This document shows, piece by piece, positions 13,507-46,616 of a DNA stretch of 64,000 bases (positions are counted from its first letter, which is position 1; each line of letters starts with the position of its first letter). Source of the stretch: [Phialemoniopsis] sp. UDSM-2020 (taxonomy: Eukaryota; Ascomycota; Sordariomycetes; Thyridiales; Thyridiaceae). The notes beneath the pieces are model-generated. The model made no database searches, was not told the origin of the DNA, and saw only the letters and a list, made by a program, of their open reading frames with translations. A program made the position numbers and the translations under genes. Location: positions 3,472,001-3,536,000 of the forward strand of contig JAEILZ010000006.1 of the NCBI GenBank assembly GCA_018873225.1, given 5' to 3'.

Positions 13507-16500
13507 ATGGAGGTTAACGAACGGACCAAGGAGCAAGTCCTGCTAGAAGCGTTCGATAAAGCGACTAAAGAGTTCAAACTCTGCCCAAATCGCGTCTGGT
13601 CTGTCGCAGGCAAAGAATTGCCAAGCCTAATGCCAACAGCAAGTGAATCATGGTCGATCAGAGGCATTGAAGAGCACGAGCTATGCACCGAGGATTTCTG
13701 CGAATATTCTCAACGTGATTTCACAGGTGTGACACAACGTCATGAGTGTGTTCAAGGGAATTGCGATCCCTTGAAGTATTTGTTTCCCAGGAACGTGCTT
13801 GAAGAAGCTGCAACAAATGGGACACCAACAGTGTGGTCGTTAAGCGGCAAATCGATGATTGTCGACCCGCAGCATTATATGGCGATCTCCCATGTATGGT
13901 CGGATGGTACTGGAGTTGGCTCCTGGCCTGAGGGTGAAGTGAACGAATGTCTATACGCTTTTTTCACCCGGGTTGCACGCCATTTCCGATGTGATGGAAT
14001 TTGGTGGGATACTCTCTGCATTCCGACTGGAAAGGCTGCTCGTGCCAAAGCCCTACGAAAAATTCCCATCAATTACCAGGACGCCCGTATAACACTCGTC
14101 CACGACTGCTTCCTCAGATGCCAGAATTGGAATAAAGAGACAGCCTGTTTCGCCATTCTGATGTCTCCTTGGTTTAGTCGAGGCTGGACTGCAGTGGAAT
14201 TGGCCATGTCACGAAAAGTGAAAGTGATCTTCCAGAGTTCCGGCGGTCCTGTGATGAAAGACCTTGACGAAGAGATTCTGGCGGATGAGAACTCATCGGA
14301 CGGTCCTAGAAAAAGGGCATCAGCTATCATAAGGAACCTCCGTAGGAAAATCACGACCATGAACGATCTCATTACGGTGTTGGGTCCGCGACACACATCT
14401 TGGCCCAAAGACATGGCCACCATCTCCGCACTTCTGGCAGGAGCAGTACCAATGAGCCAGCAGCAAGACACATACATGGGTATTCTCCGGAAATTGCGCA
14501 ATCTCTTGCCCGGACATCTTTTCCATCACTCCGCAAGCATGTCTCAAGTCAGTTGGTGCCCGAGTAGTCTGTTGAACATGCCCATCGCCGAGACAGGGTG
14601 CCCGATGGAGATCGATCAACATTGGAACTTGATCGCGCGATGGGGTGTGGTCGCGGTGGAGGAAAGGCTCGAGGATATGTGTGTTTGGGTCGGCACGCAT
14701 GCTCTACTAAAGATGAAAGTTCATGAAGCCATGACACACCCCAACGAGTGTTTGCTTCTAATTGAGCTTGGGATTGAACGGGTAGACAGGGCATTACTTG
14801 CCCAAAGGATGGAGCAAGATGGACACATTGTCGGGTATCGATACGTCGGAGCTCTACAATTCCATTCCGCCATGTTCGCAGACTACAGAAGGACGGTCCA
14901 ATATGAAGAACAGCAGATTGTCTTATTAGGCAACTCTGTCGCAAGGAAACGGCCCAATCCGGACGATGCCAAGGTGGCATTTCCCCAAAACCCTCTCGAT
15001 CGAGGTGCTGCCGGTTTGCTTGTCGCCGCAGCTGACGGCGACATACAGAGGATCCGAACTCTTTTGCGGCGATCAGCCTCCATCGACTATAGAGATCCAG
15101 TTACACTTAGAACAGCCCTGCATTGTGCAACATGGAGAGGACATCACGATATAGTGGAACTGCTCTTAGATAGCCAGGCAAACCCCCAACTGCCCGACAA
15201 ATTAGGCCAGCATCCGCTACACCTTGCCGCAGAACGTGGGACAGAACGAACCGTTGCTCTATTCATTGATAGAATGGCGATTATACACAGAAAGATGTTG
15301 TTAGACGCCCAGTGCAATGGCGGGCAGACTGTTTTGCATCGCGCAGCTTGGGGAGGCTCTGTGGCGGTGGTCGATTTGTTACTAGAGAGCACTGATTGTG
15401 ATCTTAACAAGAGGGACAAAGATGGAAATGCCGCCATTCATATAGCGGCCGAGAAGGGGTTTCAACCGGTCGTTACTAGTTTGCTTGGGGCTAGCAGCGT
15501 CGATGTGAATGCAACAAACCGAAACGGATTCACTCCATTGCTGCTCACGGCATTGCATGGATTCGAGTCAATCAGCACACTGCTGATCGAGAGGGGTGCC
15601 AATGTCGAGGGAATACATGAATCCGGCTGGAATCCACTGCATTTGGCATGTGTCAAGGCGAATGAATCGATGGTCGAGCTCCTGCTCCAGAAAGGCGTCA
15701 ACATCAATGCGGTCAACAGTATCGGCTGGAGTGCACTGCACTTAGCGATAGGATGCAGGGAAAGAGGCGTGGTCAGCTTGCTACTTCGAGAAGGTGCCGC
15801 TATGGACCTGACCGACATAGCGGGATGGACGCCATTACATTTGGCAGCCGAGATTCACGATGAGATCCTGGTCAAGGCGCTAAAGAGTAGTGGCGCGAGC
15901 CTCAACAGAGCAGAGAGCCCTAGATGGACACCATTTCATTTGGCTATGATGAATGGGCCCGAGACGGTACTTGATAAGTTGCTCGGCATGGCCAACGAGT
16001 TCAAAGAAAAGGATCATACCGGGCCCAGGATTCGCGACGAGACACAATTAAGCATTGACCATGCAATGTTTTATGCTGCAAAACATGGATATTCGGCCGC
16101 ATTACAGCTGTTTCTCAGGCAACCACCGGATGGGATTCAATCAGGCATATCTACGGAACTTAAATGGAGCAAATGGCACAAAACTGTGATGGAGGGTAAT
16201 GTGCTGCACGAATACAAAGGAATCCAAGAAAACATATTACCGCTTGCAGCAGCAAAGGGACATCAAGCTACGGTACGGTTACTTCTCAAGGAAGGCGTTG
16301 ACGTTGACACTGCCGATCAAGCTGGTTGTACGGCACTTTGGAGGGCGGCACAAGAAAGTCAAGAGGCCGTTGTACAGCTCTTGCTCGACAAAGGTGCCAA
16401 TATCGAGCAGAGTGACCGTGATAACTCCAGCCGCCCACTCGATTTGAGATTCAAACCTATTCTGCACTTGGGAAGTACGCCGCTATCCTATGCTGCTAGG

Positions 16501-17256
16501 ACCGGAAATCTTGCCATAATGGCACTCTTGCTCCGGAGAGGTGCCAACACTGAAGCCAAAGATAATGGAGGCTGTACACCGCTTTGGAGAGCGGCCGAGG
16601 GAGGGTTCGACGATGCTATCGACCTCCTTCTGGAGAATGGCGCCAACATTGAGGCAAAGGATTATGAAAATAGAACCCCACTATTTTATGCTGCTATGAA
16701 TGGTAGCCTTCCCATGATGAAATTCCTGCGAACGAGAGGTGCCAATATTGACGCCAGGGGTAAACATGGTTATACAGCGCTTTGGAGAGCAGCCGAGGGA
16801 AGATTCCAGTATGTCACAAAGGTTCTTCTTGACGAAGGCGCAAATCTGGAGGCAACAGATGAGAACGGTAGAACACCACTTTTCTTTGCTGTGGAAAGGG
16901 GGAATCTTGCTATGATAAGACTTCTACTCTCAAGAGGGGCCGACATAGAGGCATTAGACCACGGAGACTGTACAATACTCACCAAGGCATTTATCGGAGG
17001 AAATGACGCTGTTATTCAGCTCTTACTTGACTCAGGCGCTGACTTGGAGGAAAAGGATGCTGACGGTAGGAGTCTGCTGTCCCGGGCTATTGGAGCGGGA
17101 AATGCTGCTGTGGCAAAGCGTCTGTTAGATAAAGGCGCCAACGTCGAAAGTCATGATAAAGACGGCCACGACATACGTTACTGGGCTGATCGTTGCCCAT
17201 ATCCCTCTGAGAGGCAAAGTGTCTGTGCCTTACTCGCTGACAGGGGTTTAAGCTGA
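13507..17256 (+). CDS. HET-domain protein with long ankyrin-repeat array
   Basis: This is an intronless gene of 1,249 residues. A diverged HET (heterokaryon incompatibility) domain spans about residues 120-235, with YMAISHVWSDGTG at 124-136, GIWWDTLCIP at 164-173 and SPWFSRGWTAVELA at 220-233. HET domains trigger programmed cell death in nonself recognition. A linker of about 250 residues follows, without a P-loop NACHT domain. About 20 ankyrin repeats then run from about residue 500 to the end (LHLAAxxG and LLLxxGANxxxxD signatures), interrupted by a non-repeat insert around residues 820-910. The last repeats alternate ALWRAAEG and PLFYAA types with a 66-residue period. Ankyrin arrays usually serve as recognition surfaces. 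The role in nonself or pathogen sensing is inference. Confidence 0.88.
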   Translation: MEVNERTKEQVLLEAFDKATKEFKLCPNRVWSVAGKELPSLMPTASESWSIRGIEEHELCTEDFCEYSQRDFTGVTQRHECVQGNCDPLKYLFPRNVLEEAATNGTPTVWSLSGKSMIVDPQHYMAISHVWSDGTGVGSWPEGEVNECLYAFFTRVARHFRCDGIWWDTLCIPTGKAARAKALRKIPINYQDARITLVHDCFLRCQNWNKETACFAILMSPWFSRGWTAVELAMSRKVKVIFQSSGGPVMKDLDEEILADENSSDGPRKRASAIIRNLRRKITTMNDLITVLGPRHTSWPKDMATISALLAGAVPMSQQQDTYMGILRKLRNLLPGHLFHHSASMSQVSWCPSSLLNMPIAETGCPMEIDQHWNLIARWGVVAVEERLEDMCVWVGTHALLKMKVHEAMTHPNECLLLIELGIERVDRALLAQRMEQDGHIVGYRYVGALQFHSAMFADYRRTVQYEEQQIVLLGNSVARKRPNPDDAKVAFPQNPLDRGAAGLLVAAADGDIQRIRTLLRRSASIDYRDPVTLRTALHCATWRGHHDIVELLLDSQANPQLPDKLGQHPLHLAAERGTERTVALFIDRMAIIHRKMLLDAQCNGGQTVLHRAAWGGSVAVVDLLLESTDCDLNKRDKDGNAAIHIAAEKGFQPVVTSLLGASSVDVNATNRNGFTPLLLTALHGFESISTLLIERGANVEGIHESGWNPLHLACVKANESMVELLLQKGVNINAVNSIGWSALHLAIGCRERGVVSLLLREGAAMDLTDIAGWTPLHLAAEIHDEILVKALKSSGASLNRAESPRWTPFHLAMMNGPETVLDKLLGMANEFKEKDHTGPRIRDETQLSIDHAMFYAAKHGYSAALQLFLRQPPDGIQSGISTELKWSKWHKTVMEGNVLHEYKGIQENILPLAAAKGHQATVRLLLKEGVDVDTADQAGCTALWRAAQESQEAVVQLLLDKGANIEQSDRDNSSRPLDLRFKPILHLGSTPLSYAARTGNLAIMALLLRRGANTEAKDNGGCTPLWRAAEGGFDDAIDLLLENGANIEAKDYENRTPLFYAAMNGSLPMMKFLRTRGANIDARGKHGYTALWRAAEGRFQYVTKVLLDEGANLEATDENGRTPLFFAVERGNLAMIRLLLSRGADIEALDHGDCTILTKAFIGGNDAVIQLLLDSGADLEEKDADGRSLLSRAIGAGNAAVAKRLLDKGANVESHDKDGHDIRYWADRCPYPSERQSVCALLADRGLS
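16471..17010 (+). repeat. 198-bp tandem super-repeat inside the ankyrin array
   Basis: The string GCTTTGGAGAGC starts at 16581 and again at 16779, exactly 198 bases (66 codons, two ankyrin repeats) apart, and the flanking bases are also similar. Related but more diverged copies start near 16326 and 16977. This indicates duplication of ankyrin repeats in pairs. Confidence 0.65.
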
Positions 17257-32626: not shown

Positions 32627-34245
32627 CTACCCAACAAAAGGCTTCGACCCCTCAGGCAGCGTGACCCGGAACATGAGCACCTGGTTCTCGACATTGTACC
32701 CGGAGGCGTCCTTGTAGTTCAGCAGGCCGCCGCCCATGACGCCCTCCTGCGTGATGAAGTCGTTGTCCGACACGGCGAGCAGGTAGTACTCGTTGGCCGC
32801 GCCGAGCGTGTTGTTGCCGCCCTCGACGGGCAGCAGCGCGAGCCCTTCCCACTTCTCGTTGAGCAGGCCCGCGTCCTGCGCGCCGCCGTTGTGCAGGCCG
32901 AACTTGGCGAGCTGGGCGTTGACGTTGAAGTCGAGGAAGGAGCAGTAGTTGACGGGCGTGATGCCGGACTTGAGCTCGCCCTCTGGGTGGCAATAGTCAG
33001 CATGTGATAAAACAGGTATGGTAATGTAGGAGAGAACATACTACTGCTGGCAATAGAAGCGTTGAAAGCATCATACTTGGGCCCCGCAACATCAGTCGCG
33101 CCGGCAATGTCAAACACGTCGACGTGGCGGTACACCGACTCGGTCAGGTCCATCGCCCGACCGGCGCCCGAGTCGCGCGCGATGACGAGGAACTGCGACC
33201 CGCCCGCGTGGTGCACCTCGGACTGCGCCGCCACGCGCGTGTTGCCGTCGGCGTCGAGGTACAGCGGCAAGGGAACGACCCACTCGGACTTGTACACCGG
33301 CGCCTTGCTCGCGTCCTCGATCGAGTACGACAGGAACCGCGCGTGCCGGCGGTTCGGCTTCTTGAGCCCGCCCTCCTGCATGCCCGCCGACTGCAGCAGG
33401 ACGTACAGCGTCTTGCCGTCCTCGCTGATCGTCAGGCCCTCGAACCCTTGGTTGTTGTGCCGCCCCTGCGTCGGGTCGACCGGGTTAGGGTGTGCGTCGG
33501 GCTGGTACCGCGCCGGGTTGTCCGAGGGGAAACTGACGGTGCCGTTGCGCAGGGGCAGGATGGCGTCGGGCGGCGCGACGGCCATGGTCATGAGGCCCGT
33601 GCTGTCAAACTTGTACAGGTAAGGCCCGTACTCGTCACTGATCCAGAAGCCGCCGTCGGCCTTGGACAGCACCAGACCCTCCGTATCGAGCGAGACGCGC
33701 TTGCCGCCCGCGCCGGGGCCGCCGAAGCCGTCGCCCGTGTACGTGGCGGCCGGCAGGACGGGAAAGCCCGGGTAGTTGGCGCCGCCGGTGACGTCCGGGT
33801 CCAGGCCGGTGGTGGGCTGGCCGTCGGGCCCCTTGAGGAAGATGCTGTCGAGATACTCGAGCTCAATGTTGGGCTTCTTGGCCGGGCTGGCGGCGCTGGC
33901 CCGCACGGGCGTGAACTTCAGCGCGAACTTGTGGATGCGGGCCTGGTAGTTGATGGTGCCCTCGGTGTTCCAGCCGCGGTCCGGCAGGGCGTAGATGACG
34001 GCCTCGTAGGCGTCGCCCTTGCGCTGCCAGCTCTCGGCGGCGAGCGAGGAGCCGATGCTCAGCGTGTCACCGTTCTTGTCCTTGGCCGTCGAGGGGACGA
34101 AGCCGTAGCCCGACAGGCCGTTGTAGGTGTACGTCTTGCCGTTGCAGGTGGTGTTGCTGACGGCGGGGCGGGGCACGCAGGTGCCGGCGGCGGCAGCGAG
34201 CGAGGCGGCGCCCAGAGCGGCCACGTATGTCTTGAGAAGGACCAT
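32627..34245 (-). CDS. Secreted phytase-like esterase (esterase-like activity of phytase family)
   Basis: This is a secreted beta-propeller-type protein of 519 residues. Minus-strand exons are 34245-33042 and 32982-32627; the intron 33041-32983 has GTATGT and CAG ends and gives IASSKGELKSG. A signal peptide (VLLKTYVAALGAASLAAAAG) precedes the mature start. Family features include NGLSGYGFVPS, EGLVLSKADGGFWISDEYGPYLYKF split by variable loops, and NQGFEGLTISEDGKTLYVLLQ, which matches the phytase-like esterase domain (PF13449). The substrate may be phosphate or carboxylic esters and is not determined by sequence. No GPI signal is seen at the C-terminus. It lies next to genes of unrelated function. 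Confidence 0.82.
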
Positions 34246-35696
34246 GTTGATAACCGCGGAGGAGGGATATGATCAGGGTCTACTTGGCAAGGCAGGCTAC
34301 CGAGACCAGACTCCGGGGTTCCGGCTGGGCGGGCGGCATCGCGGGCCTTTTATAATCTGCAGCACCCCACGGGTTGCCCTCCACAGACCCCTGCAACTGC
34401 AACGAAAATCTCAACAGACGCAGGACTCCCCAATCGAAAGTCCATAGCTCTGGACCCCGAAGGAAGCTGTATCGAAAAAAGGAGCTTTCTGGTCTTGGCA
34501 GACTCCAGAGAAGTGAATGGTTTGGAGTAGTCCCTCGTAGCGGCGTGGGGCGAGCTGAGAGAGAGGGCTGACAGGGCGGCACACGTGGGCTGTCTGGGCC
34601 TGTCTCACTGGCCTTTCCGCGTGTCGGCCCGCCGCGAGCAATCGCTGAGAGCTGCCCACCCTTGTCGTCCACGGGTGCAAAACACCACGGTCCCTGCTCG
34701 TTCTCTGCTTATTCCCTCTGTTCCGTCGGGCTTCGTTGATCTGGCCCATGGAACTATTGACGCCAGATCAGATAACTACCCCGTAGCAGTGCGCATTGTG
34801 GCGTCATTGATCATGCAGCACGTGCTCTTCCTCTGGGTTTTGGGACGGTCATTGCGCACATCGCAAGGTGGATGTTCTAGGTTAGCCAGCTGCCAGGCGC
34901 AGTGGTGATTGACCACCACACCTCCAACACCACGATTGAATTTGGAGTCAAAATCGGTTCGCTCGGCTTGAACCGTCTGCGCACGCGCGCTGTTAGTCAG
35001 CTCGCTAGAAAACAGGTTCAATTTTCGATTGCTTACTCTCGCTTACCTGATACCTCCAGGGGTTCAGATCGACGCGCCTCGATCCTTCAGACAGAAGCTT
35101 ATTCTGACCCGGCAGTCGAACACGCCCTGTAGATCGATCAGGGAGATCGGTGGCGAGAGGGATTGGCAGGTACCGGGCCAATGGGATCAGACACGTGAAA
35201 CAAAACAGTCTCAATCTGGAAGAAATCTTTTGACTCAATTTCTCGGGCATGATGTGTTGATGTCGTGGGTCCAAGACTGAAATGTTGGTACTGTCGATAT
35301 CTGCATCGTCATTGTTTGTCTGAGAGCATGTGCTCAGCTGCTCAAACACAACACCGCATTCAGGCTCAGGTTTCTCATGCACAAAGCGTACCATTCGGAG
35401 AGCGCCTTTGAATCATTGGAATTGTTCATGTAGATATTTTTCGTTATGCTTTTCCCGCTTTATGCAGGAGTCTATGGTCTATGAAATGCAAAGGTGCTCA
35501 GAACTCCGAAGCTGCTCTTTTGTCGCTCGGATCTTGTCATCCTTTTTTCATGTCACCCCTCTCTTACGCCGCCCTTTTCTTGCTTGTCGCGCTCAATTGG
35601 CGAGAGAGCTTTCCAGAAGCATCTTCAAGCCGAGCGCAGATTCAAGCAGAGGCGACATCACCAGCTGCCCGTTCAGGCATGCGCTGATTGAGACGC
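34246..35696. other. Gene-free interval, 1.45 kb
   Basis: Both strands carry only short frames with no domain, signal peptide or consistent splice chain. It is the promoter of the phytase-like gene on one side and the 3' flank of mannitol dehydrogenase on the other. Confidence 0.5.
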
Positions 35697-38689
<2,993 letters not shown>

Positions 38690-40239
38690 ATGACGTGTTA
38701 TAACTGCAATGGGAGAGTGGTGGATGACTCGGGGTATTGTCACCGGCGTACGTCTTTACTTTGAAGTAGCGAGTCCGACGAGCTGACAGGTCTCTAGACA
38801 AGTGTGGGATCAATTCCTGCCAATCTGCGAGACACGATGGTTCCATCGTCTGCACAAGCCGTACGTTATGTTTCCATCTCATGTCCCTTGCCCGTCAGAA
38901 ACGTTCACCAATAGTTCCAAGACAAATGCAAGGACCGGGATTGCCGAGAACCGAAGTTCGGACGCTTCAGCCATTGCGGCTTACGTACGTGATCACAGCC
39001 TCCTGACTCAACATCCCGTGAGACTAAATCTGGATGTCGCTGCAGATATGTGCACATATGCCTTCTCAACCTGCGATGACATCCGAACCCACAAGTCCAC
39101 CGTTTGCAAAGATCGTGGGACATTTGCCTTTGCACTCCATTGCAACTTCAACTGTTTCTAACTTTGGACACTTAGACAAATGCTACTCCTGTACCGCATC
39201 ACGAACGGCCTCGTCGTACTACTGCGAAACACGTTAGTTGATGGCCGTTAGGAGATAATTCATATCACCATGTTAATTGTCTGACAGACAAATGCTCAAA
39301 GAGCTGCAACAACGAAGCGAAGTTGCCTTCCAGGTATTGCGAGGGGAAGCGTAAGTGCTTGATGGACGATGGTCATGGCTGTGTACCCCAGTCTGACCCT
39401 GGCCATAGACAAATGTGTCGTCATAAGCTGCGAGCAGCCGCGAATTGGGCCTTATCGCTATTGTTCTGATCGTACGAGTTGCTCTGTCCAAGATCGTGCG
39501 TGCTTTGATTATTAGCTAATAGAAGACTAGACAAGTGCGCCGCTAAGAAATGCCCGGATCGACGACAAGAGTCCGATATTCACTGCCCTGGGCGTAAGTC
39601 GCACCTGCCACCTCTTCGAGTTCCGCGTCTTTACTAACTATGAGCAAGATGGCTGTATCTCGACCGGATGTCGCAACGAAGTGGCTCCCGGATTCACTCT
39701 TTGCTACACCGGTGCGCGGCGTTGTCATCTGTGCGTCAAGCTCCTACTGATGATGTGTAGATAAATGCGGCAACACGTATTGTGGCTTCAAGAAGCTTGA
39801 CGGCAGCATAGATTGCGGTCGGCGTAAGTCATCGAGCATAACCCCTGGCGCGATGATAATTGACTCGTGCCCAGACAAATTGAAACCTGAGCCCGAAATC
39901 ACGTCGCCTGCCAGCACTCGACGGACAGAAGTCGACGACGTGCAATACCCTTCAGAGTACTATGCGACGGCTTCCTCGGGGTATTACACCGTCCCTGACT
40001 ACTCGGCCCCGGTAGATGACTCGCAATCTCAGCCTGGCCAACAGTCTGCAACAAATTTGCAGGCTACTTCATGGGAACAAACTACGCAACAACCTGACGA
40101 GCCAGCCGAAAAGGATCAAGTCTATTCTCAGTATGTGGAGCCACCCGCCCAGAGGCTCCCGCCTGGTTTCAGAGAAGCCCCAAAATCGTCCTCCAGCTCC
40201 AAGGGGAAGAGCTCCCATGTCAAGCGATCTCGCAAGTGA
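38690..40239 (+). CDS. Tandem Cys-module protein, one module per mini-exon
   Basis: I cannot assign it to a named family. Eleven exons are 38690-38747, 38798-38860, 38922-38984, 39046-39114, 39176-39232, 39288-39350, 39409-39471, 39531-39593, 39649-39711, 39761-39823 and 39875-40239. They total 990 bases, an exact 329 codons plus stop. Exons 2-10 are 57-69 bases (seven are exactly 63) and every intron is phase 1. Each of exons 1-10 encodes C-x(2-6)-C-x10-C-x(2,3)-[H/D]; the His codon is split by the intron, so most modules open HKC. The C-x10-C spacing is invariant. The pattern suggests ten small CCCH-type zinc-binding units. The last exon gives a 121-residue Tyr/Ser/Pro/Gln-rich tail ending in KGKSSHVKRSRK, a likely nuclear localisation signal. 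No signal peptide is present. DNA, RNA or protein binding is inference. Confidence 0.78.
38798..39823 (+). repeat. Nine tandem phase-1 mini-exons
   Basis: Nine exon-intron units, average period about 118 bases, run head to tail. Each unit is an exon beginning AC/AT after the intron AG, then a Lys (usually) and TGC/TGT, and an intron of 49-61 bases. Module sequences are well diverged except at Cys, His and Lys positions, so the duplications are old. Confidence 0.75.
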
Positions 40240-40588
40240 AGGTGCCGTCTGTGGGAAAGTTTTAAACAGGACGTCTCATGTAGGAAATAAGAAGAAGGCG
40301 AGAAGCGTAAAGTTGACAGTTAAGTGTCTGTGATCCTCATCTGCCCAACAACACATCAATCCGGAGAGTACGAGACACGGCAACAATCTCAAACGTCAAG
40401 TCAGATTACTGAAGAGTCCCAAAATAAAGGGGAAAACAAATATCACTGCAAGCCGGCATCCTTTCCTTCCTTTTCCTTGCCCGTTGCGAATTTCTCCCTT
40501 TGCCTTTCCAGTATGCTTTCATATATGTAGGCGCTGAGGTTCCACGAAATGTTATTGACTCGAGTTCAGGAGTGTTACAGACAAGAGA
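40240..40588. other. Convergent intergenic, no gene seen
   Basis: These are the 3' ends of two convergent genes; nothing else is visible. Confidence 0.5.
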
Positions 40589-42440
40589 TCAGGGAGTTCC
40601 TGATAGTAATATCGCAAATACCACGGCTGATTGAGTGCTTATGCAAAAAAGCAGCAAGAGCTTCGAGATGCCGGGTGTATTGACCAGTCTCTGACCAAAG
40701 AATTGGTGTAACATGATCCAAAAGGTGCAGGTCAAGCCGCTTAGGGCAAGAGCTGGCAAGGTGTACTGGACATGGAATTGGAACGTGAGAGATGTGTAGT
40801 ATGTAAGGGCAAGCGCAGATATCGAAATGAATACAGCATGGAGAATAATAATAGCGACAGCGCCTTTGATCCAGGGGCATTCTTCGGCATTGAAATAATC
40901 CAGTTGTACGAGACCCTCAGCCTGCATGCTGAGTGCTTCAGGGGTGTCTCTACGTCTGGAATCAGTGCTCACTGCTCTGAGTTGTGTGTGGCCGGGTCGC
41001 GCAGCTAGCGACTCTCGTGCGGCGGACTCAAAGGCATATTCTACCTGGTGGTTTTGTGCCTTCAAGAAACATTGCAGAACTGCTAGAATTGGTCCAGCGA
41101 GAAGTATCATGGCAAGCACTTGGCCGAACGACCACCCGCCTTCGTCAACATCAACTATCTTCTTGGTGACATGAAGGCGGATAGTTCCCCACACCGCTGA
41201 GAATATCAACCAATAGATCTAATACCCATGGGTGTTACGATCAGCAATCCTATATCAAGGGATCAAGGGACCAAGGTGTTTGCGAGGGCTTACATCGGAG
41301 AATGTCGAAAGGTAAACATATGTAGATAACCCTATTGCTATAGCAAAGGATATCTCCACTTTCTGGTACAGGGACACCACATGACGCTGCAGGCCAGCCA
41401 TCTTCTGGATATCTTGCTGAAGCTGATTATGGTGGCGCTTGTACCAAGCTCGGCCACGTCGTCTCAGTAGATGTAGAATGCGTGTCATGAAAGATGACAT
41501 CTTGATCAGACGGGCGAACAGCCCCGTCGCGAAGAGTATCATTGACATTATGGTTGTTTGATACGCGGCCGTATCGACGAATCTTTTATAAGGGTCAAGA
41601 CGATGAAACCGAAACCAATCAAGGCTACGGTTCATGTCAAAGAAACATATTGCCTGTGAACTCGGGTAACTTCCCGAGGAATACGATGGGTTCGTCCAGT
41701 TGAAGCAGACAGTCGGAACCATCGCCACCAGTAGAGCGATGGTTTGAAATATGATGAGAGATAATCGAACCCATTTCTCTGTTTTTCGAACGCCAAAATA
41801 TGCTCGCAGGGCGGTCAGGCTAGCAAGTTGTGTGAGGCTAGAGAACCAAGCTTGCAGGACGACAATCAGGAAGTGGTATGCGGATATTCCACATCCTAGA
41901 TTGGCGAACCCGCTGATCAAAATTCCGAGGCCAGTCGTGGTCTGAATGTCACACATGTTCAATATTGACTAGAAAGCGTCAATCAGCGGGAAACCTTTTA
42001 AACCTTTTGCGCACATTTCTTCTGACCAGATTGAATGCCTCCTGCCAGTCGAATCTGCCTTGCAGCCGATTGAGTGGGAGGTTAACACGGTTGCAAACGC
42101 GCTCAAGTTTCTTGTGGATGGATTGGATCATAATGGCATCGACAGGATTGGTATCCCACAATAGAGATGCGTCCAAGGCCGTTCCAGTACTGCTAGCTTC
42201 GTGAGCATTGTGTTGTGGGTCGTAGACAATGCAATAGTGCAGTGCTACGAGCAAGGTAGCGATCCATGCCGTGGCCAGGAAACTTATGGTCACCTATGAA
42301 GTTTAGATAACACTCCAAAACTCCAGTACTCCGGCCAACAATTTGCGCAAACTCACCCCCAATCCTCCGATATCTCCGTACGCCTCCAAAGGTCGATTTT
42401 GGACCTCCCATTCGCAACTGTAGCTGCATTTACTCGTCAT
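40589..42440 (-). CDS. Fungal multipass membrane protein, four exons
   Basis: This is an uncharacterised integral membrane protein of 555 residues. Minus-strand exons are 42440-42357, 42293-42015, 41968-41294 and 41218-40589. The 46-base second intron uses a GTGCGC donor and is the least certain junction; the others join cleanly (IGGLG to VTISFLATAW, and FSD to IYWLIFSAVWG). About eight hydrophobic segments are seen, including MTISFLATAWIATLLVALHY, GLGILISGFANLG, SLIIFQTIALLVAMVP and HVQYTLPALALSGL. The motif CDIQTTTGLGILISG followed by CGISAYHFLIVVLQAWFSS recurs in a large family of fungal membrane proteins of unknown role. It lies tail-side to a HET gene on the same strand, a frequent association. 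Confidence 0.72.
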
Positions 42441-42696
42441 GATGTTGAGAATCCCCGTGCCTGTCTGGTAATTGGGATCAAAGGTTACAGTGCGTCTGTG
42501 CGAGAATGAAGAATTAGAGAATTTGACACAGCATCAAGGTAAGATAAGCAGCACTTCCAGCCTCAGCCTCGTTCTTCACAGGAACGAGCGTATACACTTG
42601 CCATTGGAACAACCCCGCTTAATCTATTTGACGCTTAAGCGAGTGGCTGAGCGTGTGTCTATATGTAGTCTCACGTAATCTGAATATATCACTGAT

Positions 42697-44721
42697 CTAG
42701 ACGATCACAAAATCCTCGCTATTACGCTTCCCCTCCTCCATTGCTTCACCATCCATGACCCCGTCAATATAGGCCTCTCCGACAAAGCTACACAGGTCAC
42801 CCTCCACCGGACGTAAGACCACCGGCGCCTTATGACCGAAGATGATCGCGATGAAATCCCCTTTTTGAATATATGACGGACCTGTACCGAGCCTGCCACC
42901 ATCAGTGACGAACAAGGTCATTTTGCCTCCGCGAAAGTGGCTTGCCACCCTGCGCTGGAGAAAATGCGAGAAGCAAGAAATTTGTAGCTGGATCGGTGTA
43001 TTTCGACCACCGTCTATTTCATCTCGCAAGCACTCATATCGAGACAGCAGCGCGGCATTTTCCGGGGCTACGTCCTCCTCTTCGAAACGCCCCTGTCCGT
43101 CAAATGTCTTTTGGGCGAGGCCCAGATACGTGCTGTTAGTCCGTGCCATTTCTCCATGGAGTGTGATGTTATCCATTACACATGTGCGAATGATGGTTTT
43201 GTCATCAGTGATTCCGCTCTCGTAGGAGAATGTGACAATCTCATTCGTTAGGGACTCTCTCGGTTTGACGATAATTGTGTATTGTGTGTCCAAGATGGAC
43301 GTGATGGCGCCGAGACGAAACCCACTGAGCAAAAGTGTGGGCGAGTCCTCCGCTTCGTCACTAGAGTGCTCCGGCGATTGTTGTCTATCAGACGATGCTT
43401 TAAACCCAGGGAAGCCGTACGAAACGGGAAAGAAGGGGACACCCTCCCTGCACAACCGAGTCCAGTCTGGGACCCAAGAGGGCAAATCAGCCAAATCCTT
43501 TGGAAAGGTACTGAAACCAAGTGAATATCCCTTGTCGTGTCGAATGAATGCTCTTGTGAAGGCGGTGAATACCTCGATGGTTGATTTGCTGTAGTCGGTT
43601 CTGAGGTTGAGTAGACTCGCATCATGGCTTACTCCAAGAAGCCCAAAAAAGAGGTCCCTAGCGTCGGTTGCAAGAAGCATTGGCATATCGAATGAGCCCA
43701 TGCAACTTTTGAAGATCGAAAGTAATGAAGGAAAGCCTTTCTGGTGGCGTCTGCGTCGTATCATGAAGCCGGGGTTATCAATGAGATTGCGATTGAAGTT
43801 CCCCAGCCATTGCGGGCTTGTTGTGCCAGGGTTAGCCTTGGCCTTCAATTCATCTAGAATCCGTGACGACTTGTCGGACAGCCTACGGTTGGTCACAGCG
43901 AGAACACTCTCGAAATGATCGACCGGTAACTGGCGATTGCCACAGAGGGACATGCCGTTGCGAGATACGGCTAGCTCTTGAACAATCCATAGCCGCTGGA
44001 AAAACGGACGTCGTAATAGGGCTTCCATCGCTTTATTCATTCGATCTGAAGTCAAGTCTAGTGGGTGCTGAAACGCCAATCGCACCAGAAATGGAGCCGC
44101 CTCGTGTGTGAAGATAGAACTGTTATTGTCGAACATTTCCGTCGACACGTCGGACGAGGAAGGACCTTGAAATACGAGCTTCGGCAAGGCGTCTTGGTGT
44201 TTATCCCCAAGGAAGCGAAGAAGGCATTCTTCTTGTGCATTTGGGGACATCGCGACAAAGCCCAATACATCCGCCTGAAAAGCCTCTCGGCCAAATGCCG
44301 CCACCCAGTCGAGGAGAAAATCGCTATCATCCGCCTCAGGGCCGAGCCAGTGGTAGACTGTTTCTGCTGTCTGAAAGATGTCTCGCATTCGATCCACCTC
44401 CCAGCTTTTTTCGTCATCATTTGCTTGGTCGATACAGATCGCATCTACCCAGACCCAAGCTTCAGTTCTCTGCTGCCCTAGTTCTGCGAGGGCGCAGTAG
44501 AGATTTTGGCGGACTGGAACCTCGACATTGTTAACGAGAATAGTCACCTGATCATCAGCGCTGCCCCAGACGTAGGACAGAGCTATGTACGGAGTCTCTC
44601 CGTGTTGATGGTGCTCAAGCTGCACAGACAAAAGGTCACCGTCTGTTGATGGCTGGCGACCCTCAAGATTGAGCCGGATTAACCGTATTTCTCCATTTTC
44701 TCGATTCAGACGTAGATGCAT
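42697..44721 (-). CDS. HET-domain heterokaryon incompatibility protein
   Basis: This intronless gene encodes 674 residues. The canonical HET domain occupies about residues 44-190: YIALSYVWG near 45-53, WVWVDAICIDQAND near 90-103, and MRDIFQTAETVYHWLG near 112-127. HET proteins drive cell death when incompatible hyphae fuse. The C-terminal part (residues 200-670) is the usual variable region with no recognised domain; near the end, RVASHFRGGKMTLFVTDGGRLG and GDFIAIIFGHKAPVVLRP match the conserved tail of many single HET proteins. It is intact from start to stop. The partner locus is unknown. Together with the HET-ankyrin gene 25 kb away it marks this as an accessory-type region. Confidence 0.9.
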   Translation of the reverse strand: MHLRLNRENGEIRLIRLNLEGRQPSTDGDLLSVQLEHHQHGETPYIALSYVWGSADDQVTILVNNVEVPVRQNLYCALAELGQQRTEAWVWVDAICIDQANDDEKSWEVDRMRDIFQTAETVYHWLGPEADDSDFLLDWVAAFGREAFQADVLGFVAMSPNAQEECLLRFLGDKHQDALPKLVFQGPSSSDVSTEMFDNNSSIFTHEAAPFLVRLAFQHPLDLTSDRMNKAMEALLRRPFFQRLWIVQELAVSRNGMSLCGNRQLPVDHFESVLAVTNRRLSDKSSRILDELKAKANPGTTSPQWLGNFNRNLIDNPGFMIRRRRHQKGFPSLLSIFKSCMGSFDMPMLLATDARDLFFGLLGVSHDASLLNLRTDYSKSTIEVFTAFTRAFIRHDKGYSLGFSTFPKDLADLPSWVPDWTRLCREGVPFFPVSYGFPGFKASSDRQQSPEHSSDEAEDSPTLLLSGFRLGAITSILDTQYTIIVKPRESLTNEIVTFSYESGITDDKTIIRTCVMDNITLHGEMARTNSTYLGLAQKTFDGQGRFEEEDVAPENAALLSRYECLRDEIDGGRNTPIQLQISCFSHFLQRRVASHFRGGKMTLFVTDGGRLGTGPSYIQKGDFIAIIFGHKAPVVLRPVEGDLCSFVGEAYIDGVMDGEAMEEGKRNSEDFVIV

Positions 44722-45305
44722 CGTTTGTGGCTTTCAGAAATCATTGAAGTTGACTTTCGCGAGTAGACCTCTCCTCTAGCCGAGAAACAAATACCAATCA
44801 GGGTGATGAGGTAGACCTAGCTGCTTGCATTCGAGCGTTGGGTCAGTAAAAGCCTCGGATGGATGCCTAATATGTGCACCAGCAAACGCCAATCAGATCA
44901 TCGCTACCGACCAACTCAAGTCCGTGCCTGTGCTGAGGTGGCAGAGTCCGATGTTCGCCAAGATTCTTCTTCGCAGCCACCTTGTCATTCGTTGATTCTT
45001 TCCAGGTTCTCTCCTCTCCGTGTCCTCAACCTGGCTCAATCTTGGTTATGATTAATAATCGGAGGCTACTGCCGAAATGCTGCACGTAACAGAAAAGCAG
45101 GACTGATGCCATTATCATGAATTCTAGTCAACAAAACACTTGCATGATCCTTCCATCTCAATGATTGACCCCATGCTGACAACCCAGTGGATCTCGAACG
45201 GGTTGCCTGATGCGGGCCTTGGCATCCATCTGCACCGAAGCCAAAAGATTCAGTACAAGGTACAGGCCCCATCCGCAAGTTCCCCCGGACTCATCGCATT
45301 TCATC
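44722..45305. other. Divergent intergenic, no gene seen
   Basis: The interval separates the divergent HET and 2EXR genes. No distinctive site was found. Confidence 0.45.
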
Positions 45306-46616
45306 ATGGGCAAGTTTGACGATCTTGCCCTTGAAGTGCAGGGGGCCATATGGCAACTTGTGCTTCCGTTTCGCGGCGTGCATTGGATCGAAGTAGAAGG
45401 TATTCCACACGAGCCTAGCTATGTCCGTGAGGGTATCGACATGACAGAATGGCACAAATTCGATCGAATACCGGAGTCGTACGATGAAGCTTCCAAACTT
45501 GTAAAGAGACATCCAAATTATTACCAGCGCTCAAGGACAAAGACCGACGACTCTGGCGCCTTCTTTCAGCGTCTTTTCACGACTGTGCCGTCTGCTCTTG
45601 GCAAGGCAGGCCCGCAAGACGAAGACAGCAGCGCCGCTACATTTGGGTACGCTTGTAATGACGGAGAGACCACTACTCTCGACGATGAAATTGCCTACAC
45701 GCGACGTTGCCGACGGCTGTCGACGTATACCCAGATCACCGCACTTCTCTCAACCTGCAGGTTGTCACGCCTCATCGCCCTCGAGCGCATCCATGATGAC
45801 AGCAGATACAGCTGGCCTCTCCATCGCAGCATGGGGTCGATGTACCGCCCACGGCACATGAACACCTGGATGACCCAATACCTCCGCGGCAAGACACCCC
45901 CTGCAATGAATGAAGACGAGGAAGTCCTCGTCCCAAGAATCCATGCGCTTGATCTGGTCGTGTTCCGGGTCTATGACAGTCAGGGCCGCGCGACACCATT
46001 GCTACGGCAGGCTGCCTGGCAGTGCAGGATCGAGAAACTGTCCCATGGAACCACGTTCGGATGCTTTGATCGCATTGGGATAGAGTGGCATCCATCGTGG
46101 GCCACCGCCGGTGGGCGGGGCGAGCTGCGCTCCAAGAGCTTCCAGGCCTTTGTCAGGCTCACGGCCCACGAACCCTCACTCCTGTGCTGGCTCGTCGACG
46201 GCATTCCGCGCCCTGACTGGAAGCGCGACTACCCTGCAATTGTGGAGGAGATCTTTGCGCAGCGCATGGAGATGAACAAGGCCGAGGTCGTGATGCACAT
46301 CCATATGCACTGGGGACATAGCCGCGAGGAGTCGATGGCAATAATACACGATCACCACTTAGGACTGGAGTTCGAAGCCAATGGACGCCGATACTATGTA
46401 GTGTACGTCGTGGGGAGCGGCTACACTCCGGAGCAAAAGACGCAGTTGGACAAGGCTGGGCTCGGCTATCGCGGGCCGTTTCCGGGAAGCGCAGACATGT
46501 GGCCAGAGGCCCTGCGAGAGCCGGTGAGGTGCGCCTACGATATGATATCTGATAAGTCCCGTAACATGGGCACGTACCACCATGTCTCGTACATCTTGAG
46601 TTGGGAACCATTATGA
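45306..46616 (+). CDS. 2EXR-domain protein
   Basis: This is a single-exon protein of 436 residues; the ATG at 45306 begins MGKFDDLALEV. The N-terminal stretch LALEVQGAIWQLVLPFRGVH matches the fungal 2EXR domain pattern (LPLELRxxIWxxALPxxR). The middle, from LLSTCRLSRLIALE, is also typical, with a conserved TCR-x-SR. The rest is unique, with His-rich HIHMHWGH and a C-terminal TYHHVSYI. No catalytic motif is recognised. Such proteins are abundant in moulds and their function is unknown. An upstream in-frame ATG 32 codons earlier lacks support. Confidence 0.75.
   Translation: MGKFDDLALEVQGAIWQLVLPFRGVHWIEVEGIPHEPSYVREGIDMTEWHKFDRIPESYDEASKLVKRHPNYYQRSRTKTDDSGAFFQRLFTTVPSALGKAGPQDEDSSAATFGYACNDGETTTLDDEIAYTRRCRRLSTYTQITALLSTCRLSRLIALERIHDDSRYSWPLHRSMGSMYRPRHMNTWMTQYLRGKTPPAMNEDEEVLVPRIHALDLVVFRVYDSQGRATPLLRQAAWQCRIEKLSHGTTFGCFDRIGIEWHPSWATAGGRGELRSKSFQAFVRLTAHEPSLLCWLVDGIPRPDWKRDYPAIVEEIFAQRMEMNKAEVVMHIHMHWGHSREESMAIIHDHHLGLEFEANGRRYYVVYVVGSGYTPEQKTQLDKAGLGYRGPFPGSADMWPEALREPVRCAYDMISDKSRNMGTYHHVSYILSWEPL

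Follow-up and report, generated by a model that had tools for sequence, protein, structure and literature searches.

Growth of a gene by duplication of symmetric mini-exons is thought to be typical of animals, and the classical RNA-binding CCCH zinc finger (zf-CCCH) is spaced C-x(7-8)-C-x5-C-x3-H. Shorter Cys/His units are curated in Pfam as Zf_WRKY19 (PF24906), a tandem unit of 24 positions, and CxC6 (PF18721), a 66-position profile named after transposon genes. CxC5/CxC6 clusters are reported to accompany KDZ transposons; those of Pleurotus ostreatus lay with Copia elements instead, and cysteine-rich clusters were suggested to bind specific DNA (PMC7641404). A related cluster, CxC7, was suggested to bind DNA or chromatin proteins (PMC12062965). 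Among fungal genes with mini-exons, the NACHT-ANK genes of Tuber melanosporum form a superfamily with dozens of 3 bp mini-exons (PMC9815663). Here we describe an eleven-exon gene model of a filamentous ascomycete that encodes ten tandem Cys modules, each closed at an intron.

Results

The gene model lies on the plus strand at positions 38690-40239 of the window (the whole 64-kb stretch of DNA that was analysed). Its eleven exons join to 990 nt, or 330 codons with the stop, and encode 329 residues. Exon joining reproduced the model of the preliminary description exactly, including its coordinates and the length of exons 2 to 10 (57 to 69 nt each). An in-frame stop at 38597 begins 93 bases before the start ATG, and no other in-frame ATG lies between the two. 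All ten modules retain their three Cys, and the exons contain neither a frame break nor an in-frame stop.

The modules follow the general form C-x(2-6)-C-x10-C-x(2-3)-[H/D], span about 21 residues and stand in tandem. Exon 1 (38690-38747) carries the start codon and module 1 (C-x2-C-x10-C-x2-H). The spacing C-x4-C-x10-C-x2-H is found in modules 2 (exon 2, 38798-38860), 3 (exon 3, 38922-38984), 7 (exon 7, 39409-39471, within the subthreshold CxC6 match reported below), 8 (exon 8, 39531-39593), and 10 (exon 10, 39761-39823). Module 9 (exon 9, 39649-39711) has the same spacing with a closing Asp, so that strict x4-x10-x2 spacing holds in 6 of 10 modules. The others are module 4 (exon 4, 39046-39114; C-x6-C-x10-C-x2-H), module 5 (exon 5, 39176-39232; C-x2-C-x10-C-x2-H), and module 6 (exon 6, 39288-39350; C-x3-C-x10-C-x3-H). 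Exon 11 (39875-40239) encodes a Cys-free tail, about 120 residues long, in which Ser, Gln and Pro are frequent; it has a basic end and is followed by the stop codon. The gap between the second and third Cys is 10 residues in all ten modules. The gap between the first and second varies (4 residues in six modules, 2 in two, 3 in one, and 6 in one), and the closing residue stands after a gap of 2 residues in nine modules and 3 in one. The spacing claimed beforehand, x10 followed two or three residues after the third Cys by His or once Asp, therefore applies to every module.

The ten introns are 49 to 61 nt long, run from GT to AG, and are all in phase 1. Each lies inside the codon that closes a module, and splicing rebuilds a His codon nine times and an Asp codon once. 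The claim of one phase-1 mini-exon per module was thus borne out at 10 of 10 introns. Intron 10 (51 nt) contains no stop and keeps the frame; if retained, it would lengthen the protein by 17 residues at the cost of the last His, so that the closing His of module 10 requires its splicing.

To gauge chance, we scanned for module exons with a pattern composed after the modules had been seen: an AG acceptor, 2 nt and a codon, then TGY-(6-18)-TGY-30-TGY-6/9-N and a GT donor, in an open frame. On the plus strand of the 64-kb window this gave 9 matches, exactly exons 2 to 10, and on the minus strand 0. In 100 Markov-simulated 64-kb sequences, each scanned on a single strand, the mean was 0.06 matches and the maximum 2. 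With a stricter pattern, the 44.2-Mb genome yielded 5 matches, all at the 38690-40239 locus (exons 2, 3, 5, 7, and 8), and the reversed control 0. A looser pattern gave 30 matches in the genome (5 at the locus) versus 33 in the control; outside the locus it returns only noise.

Splice signals were likewise enriched. Donors of the form GTA[AC]G[TA] occur in 7 of 10 introns versus 49 of 3,603 GT on the plus strand of the window, and a branch-like [CT]T[AG]A[CT] lies 15 to 19 nt upstream of the acceptor in 8 of 10 introns versus 143 of 4,058 AG; both patterns were fixed after the introns had been inspected, which weakens the test slightly. Poor donors follow exon 4 (intron 4, GTGGGA) and exon 9 (intron 9, GTGCGC), and no branch motif lies 15 to 19 nt before the acceptors of introns 2 and 3.

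The assembly comprises 44,176,824 bases in 11 contigs, and a genome search found the locus to be single copy at the DNA level. Between 37000 and 42000 there are no inverted repeats of at least 16 nt. Searching the genome with the module protein itself returned eleven matches at E ≤ 10, all from the module gene; of two fungal relatives used as queries, one gave no match and the other a single match at E 1.14. These paralog searches ran without a positive control, and diverged 21-residue mini-exons would escape them.

According to Pfam, the window also encodes HET domains, a Zn2Cys6 cluster, and Fungal_trans, families that point to a filamentous ascomycete. Downstream of the module gene, a heterokaryon incompatibility (HET) domain protein is encoded on the minus strand at 42697-44721. 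An ankyrin-repeat gene at 13507-17256 on the plus strand forms a single open reading frame of 1,249 codons with a HET match of 24.3 bits near its start; this long repeat gene is one open frame, unlike the exon-per-module gene. Across 34000-46000, G+C content is 0.53 to 0.62 in 1-kb windows starting before 38 kb and 0.48 to 0.53 from 38 kb on, where the module gene sits.

We then asked how the modules relate to known proteins. When 5.8 billion proteins were searched directly, 178 candidates were returned, of which none reached E ≤ 0.01, probably because the search filter requires exact 5-residue words. The search thus yielded no ortholog that would show conservation of the gene. An artificial consensus of five modules, which we composed, returned five proteins (P0001 to P0005) among 45 candidates, with P0005 at E 0.078. 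P0002 is hypothetical protein F5Y15DRAFT_380327 of Xylariaceae sp. FL0016, and P0003 is hypothetical protein VSDG_05863 of Cytospora chrysosperma. P0001 and P0004 are unnamed proteins with lipoprotein-like starts, as judged by eye. The UniRef name of P0003 is "WRKY transcription factor 19," although Pfam detects no family in it; this name was probably carried over from WRKY19-type zinc units.

In whole-protein phmmer comparisons, the spliced protein scored best against P0001 (48 bits), followed by P0004 (34 bits), P0002 (16 bits), and P0003 (13 bits); against P0005 it fell below zero bits. With residues 1-210 as the query, 0 of 200 full shuffles reached the real score for each of P0001, P0002, P0003, and P0004, and the same was true of 200 spacing-breaking reorderings for each of the four. 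With Cys and His held fixed, the real score was reached by 2 of 200 shuffles for P0001, 0 of 200 for P0004, 2 of 200 for P0002, and 1 of 200 for P0003. Judged by these comparisons, the signal toward P0001 to P0004 is mostly the Cys/His frame, with a small contribution beyond it, and identity outside Cys and His is thin. Against P0005, which is of the WRKY19 type, the module protein scored no better than shuffles, about half of which did as well.

A hidden Markov model built from 33 modules of six other proteins ranked the spliced protein first (E 3.8e-5) when run against 1,901 six-frame stretches of the window, and the next ranks were two unspliced parts of the module locus. Among single modules, only modules 2 and 7 had an i-E below 0.001. 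The protein shares with the P0001 to P0004 type, which is unnamed in Pfam, both the tandem units and a similarity above the composition and spacing controls.

Searching with an alignment built from P0001 and P0004 brought up two loci of Clostridia metagenome-assembled genomes (MAGs), L043 and L044, out of 28 stretches. By eye, the gene at L043:2818-3306 has a lipoprotein-like start and four modules, and that at L044:2407-3294 contains a membrane segment and ends in modules.

Pfam detected no match in the whole module protein even at E 10. Modules 7 to 9 matched CxC6 at 17.4 bits (E 0.0054), short of the Pfam cutoff of 27.5 bits, and P0001 scored 13.4 bits against the same family. The L043 protein passes the cutoffs of both CxC6 (35.7 bits versus 27.5) and zf-TRM13_CCCH (23.2 bits versus 20.9) and remains under that of Zf_WRKY19 (18.8 bits versus 27); the L044 protein passes none of the three. 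P0005 passes Zf_WRKY19 with 90 bits. At the cutoff of 27 bits, Zf_WRKY19 had no match in the whole module protein or in its module part. Six-frame searches of the genome with Zf_WRKY19 and profile searches with CxC6 and KDZ also gave no match, and the control genomes were silent as well. Sequence searches of solved structures found no relative of the module. The spacing C-x(2-6)-C-x10-C-x(2-3)-[H/D] departs from that of the classical zf-CCCH finger, and Pfam gave no match to that family either. By these tests the protein belongs to no curated family, but its putative zinc module lies close to the Cys3His mini zinc clusters (CxC6 and WRKY19-type).

The preliminary description had proposed a tiny zinc-binding unit. 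That proposal is supported insofar as the C-C-C-H unit resembles known mini zinc fingers in size and kind. Each module probably binds a single zinc, with its three Cys and the closing His as ligands. The invariant gap between the second and third Cys, next to a variable gap between the first and second, fits a loop of fixed geometry.

In the best AlphaFold2 model of P0001, the module array (residues 21-190) reached block means of pLDDT 80 to 94 with only four sequences in the input, and a strand or bridge recurs every 21 residues. Of the five models, the best had a mean pLDDT of 63.9 and the others 34.6 to 49.6; pTM was 0.43. Residues 190-345 of P0001 form a C-terminal part modeled with low confidence and without a Pfam match at the cutoff. 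P0002 folded without an alignment yielded no confident module part.

Finally, we compared the repeats with one another. The mean identity of the intron sequences was 0.588 versus 0.577 after shuffling, and among exons 2 to 10 neighbors were no more alike than distant pairs (0.606 versus 0.610). Since the introns are barely above shuffles and neighboring exons are no closer, any duplication would be old, and its order cannot be read from the exons.

Discussion

We consider, with moderate confidence, that the locus is a genuine protein gene of a filamentous ascomycete, present in one copy and multiply spliced, and that it encodes ten Cys3His mini zinc modules predicted to form a rod scaffold. 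Successive modules, like small knots on a string, would pack end to end into this rod, as predicted for the relative P0001. The rod would most likely serve inside the cell as a scaffold that binds nucleic acid or protein. The basic tail perhaps directs the protein to the nucleus, and it makes nucleic acid or a nuclear partner plausible.

Growth by tandem duplication of one intron-flanked exon would be the most likely origin of the gene. All introns cut the equivalent module codon in phase 1, so adding, losing, or skipping a unit leaves the reading frame intact. The resemblance to animal-type exon shuffling raised in the preliminary description persists in symmetry and position only, in that the introns bounding the modules share one phase and equivalent positions in 10 of 10 cases. 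Protein and pattern searches of the same genome, which diverged copies could escape, found no second gene with the module exon. More broadly, the gene may represent fungal modular growth through symmetric phase-1 mini-exons, built on an ancient shared zinc unit of about 21 residues that also occurs in bacterial lipoproteins, with exon skipping possibly varying the number of units; we put this fuller reading forward as a tentative possibility.

An old intron-free array may instead have received its introns later and in parallel, at the identical site of each module, for example from a mobile intron-like element with a preferred target. Similar tandem units are indeed plain open reading frames at the two Clostridia MAG loci, and the introns share little sequence beyond shuffles. 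This history is nonetheless unlikely, because ten insertions would all have had to hit one and the same base of the closing codon, leaving every module split; moreover, the locus is single copy and the introns fall under no repeat family (single introns were left out of the genome search).

A second alternative is that the gene began as a transposon-borne cysteine cluster (CxC6 type), was recruited by the host, and now binds DNA or chromatin proteins. The CxC6 match of modules 7 to 9 and the L043 protein, which exceeds the CxC6 cutoff, point in this direction, as do the KDZ association and the DNA- or chromatin-binding roles suggested in the sources cited above. Against it, modules 7 to 9 stay under the cutoff and the whole protein has no match, the genome contains no CxC6 or KDZ match (the controls being equally silent), and the locus is single copy without inverted repeats of at least 16 nt nearby. 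We regard such an origin as rather improbable. That the locus is a decaying or unexpressed relic of a repeat gene, spuriously callable by gene finders, is very improbable: the two weak donors and the failure of the direct search to detect an ortholog at E ≤ 0.01 would fit it, but the reading frame is intact, three Cys persist in all ten modules and the closing His in nine, and splice signals exceed background by a wide margin.

If the ten introns are real, the mini-exon gene offers a compact natural test of repeat-protein growth in a fungus, in which every unit is one exon, the loss or gain of any inner exon preserves the frame, and the geometry of the unit is nearly fixed. Were exon skipping to occur, one gene would give rise to a family of rods of differing length. 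Gene finders may miss such genes, the exons being about 63 bases long. The gene also draws attention to tandem Cys3His modules as a class that is hardly annotated in fungi and Clostridia.

How far the locus is new depends on the level of comparison. The preliminary description, which recognized no family, had called it the best candidate for an undescribed system. It is right that no Pfam family passes, but similar tandem units occur in uncharacterised fungal proteins and in bacterial lipoprotein-like proteins. The kind of protein is already known in outline, and its fungal relatives carry only the label "hypothetical" or a borrowed name. Full-text searches of open papers found no description of the layout or of the module family, an absence that strict term matching in some of them makes weak.

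Comparison with known systems

Among curated families, CxC6 has a comparable Cys/His cluster; it differs in its 66-position profile and its naming after transposon genes, against ten short modules in a single-copy gene. The unit of Zf_WRKY19, at 24 positions, likewise stands in tandem, its member P0005 having the form C-x4-C-x9-C-x2-H. It differs in a gap of 9 rather than the 10 found in the module protein, whose linker is also shorter.

The unit also occurs in bacterial proteins and in the bacterial-looking P0001 and P0004. L043, L044, P0001, and P0004 share C-x4-C-x10-C-x2-H units with mostly one residue before the next Cys, and P0001 also has the 21-residue period. L043 and L044 differ from the present gene in being plain open reading frames with, by eye, an N-terminal signal or membrane segment, and P0001 in carrying another C-terminal part. 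P0002 and P0003 are, like the module protein, fungal, with many tandem Cys-x4-Cys-x(9-16)-Cys-x2-His units in which the next Cys mostly lies 1 to 2 residues past the His, and no Pfam family reaches the cutoff in them. They differ in that the gap between the second and third Cys is 10 in 6 of 12 and 0 of 7 modules, respectively (the script that cut the modules puts some out of register), and P0002 also differs in the long predicted helix at its end.

With respect to exon layout, the nearest fungal case we found is that of the truffle NACHT-ANK mini-exon genes. They too are repeat-protein genes of fungi whose repeat part could be varied by the splicing of small exons; they differ in that their exons are 3 bp, so that an exon is not one repeat, and in belonging to another protein family (PMC9815663). 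For a fungus, the ten successive one-module exons of one phase look to be the unusual part of the gene described here.
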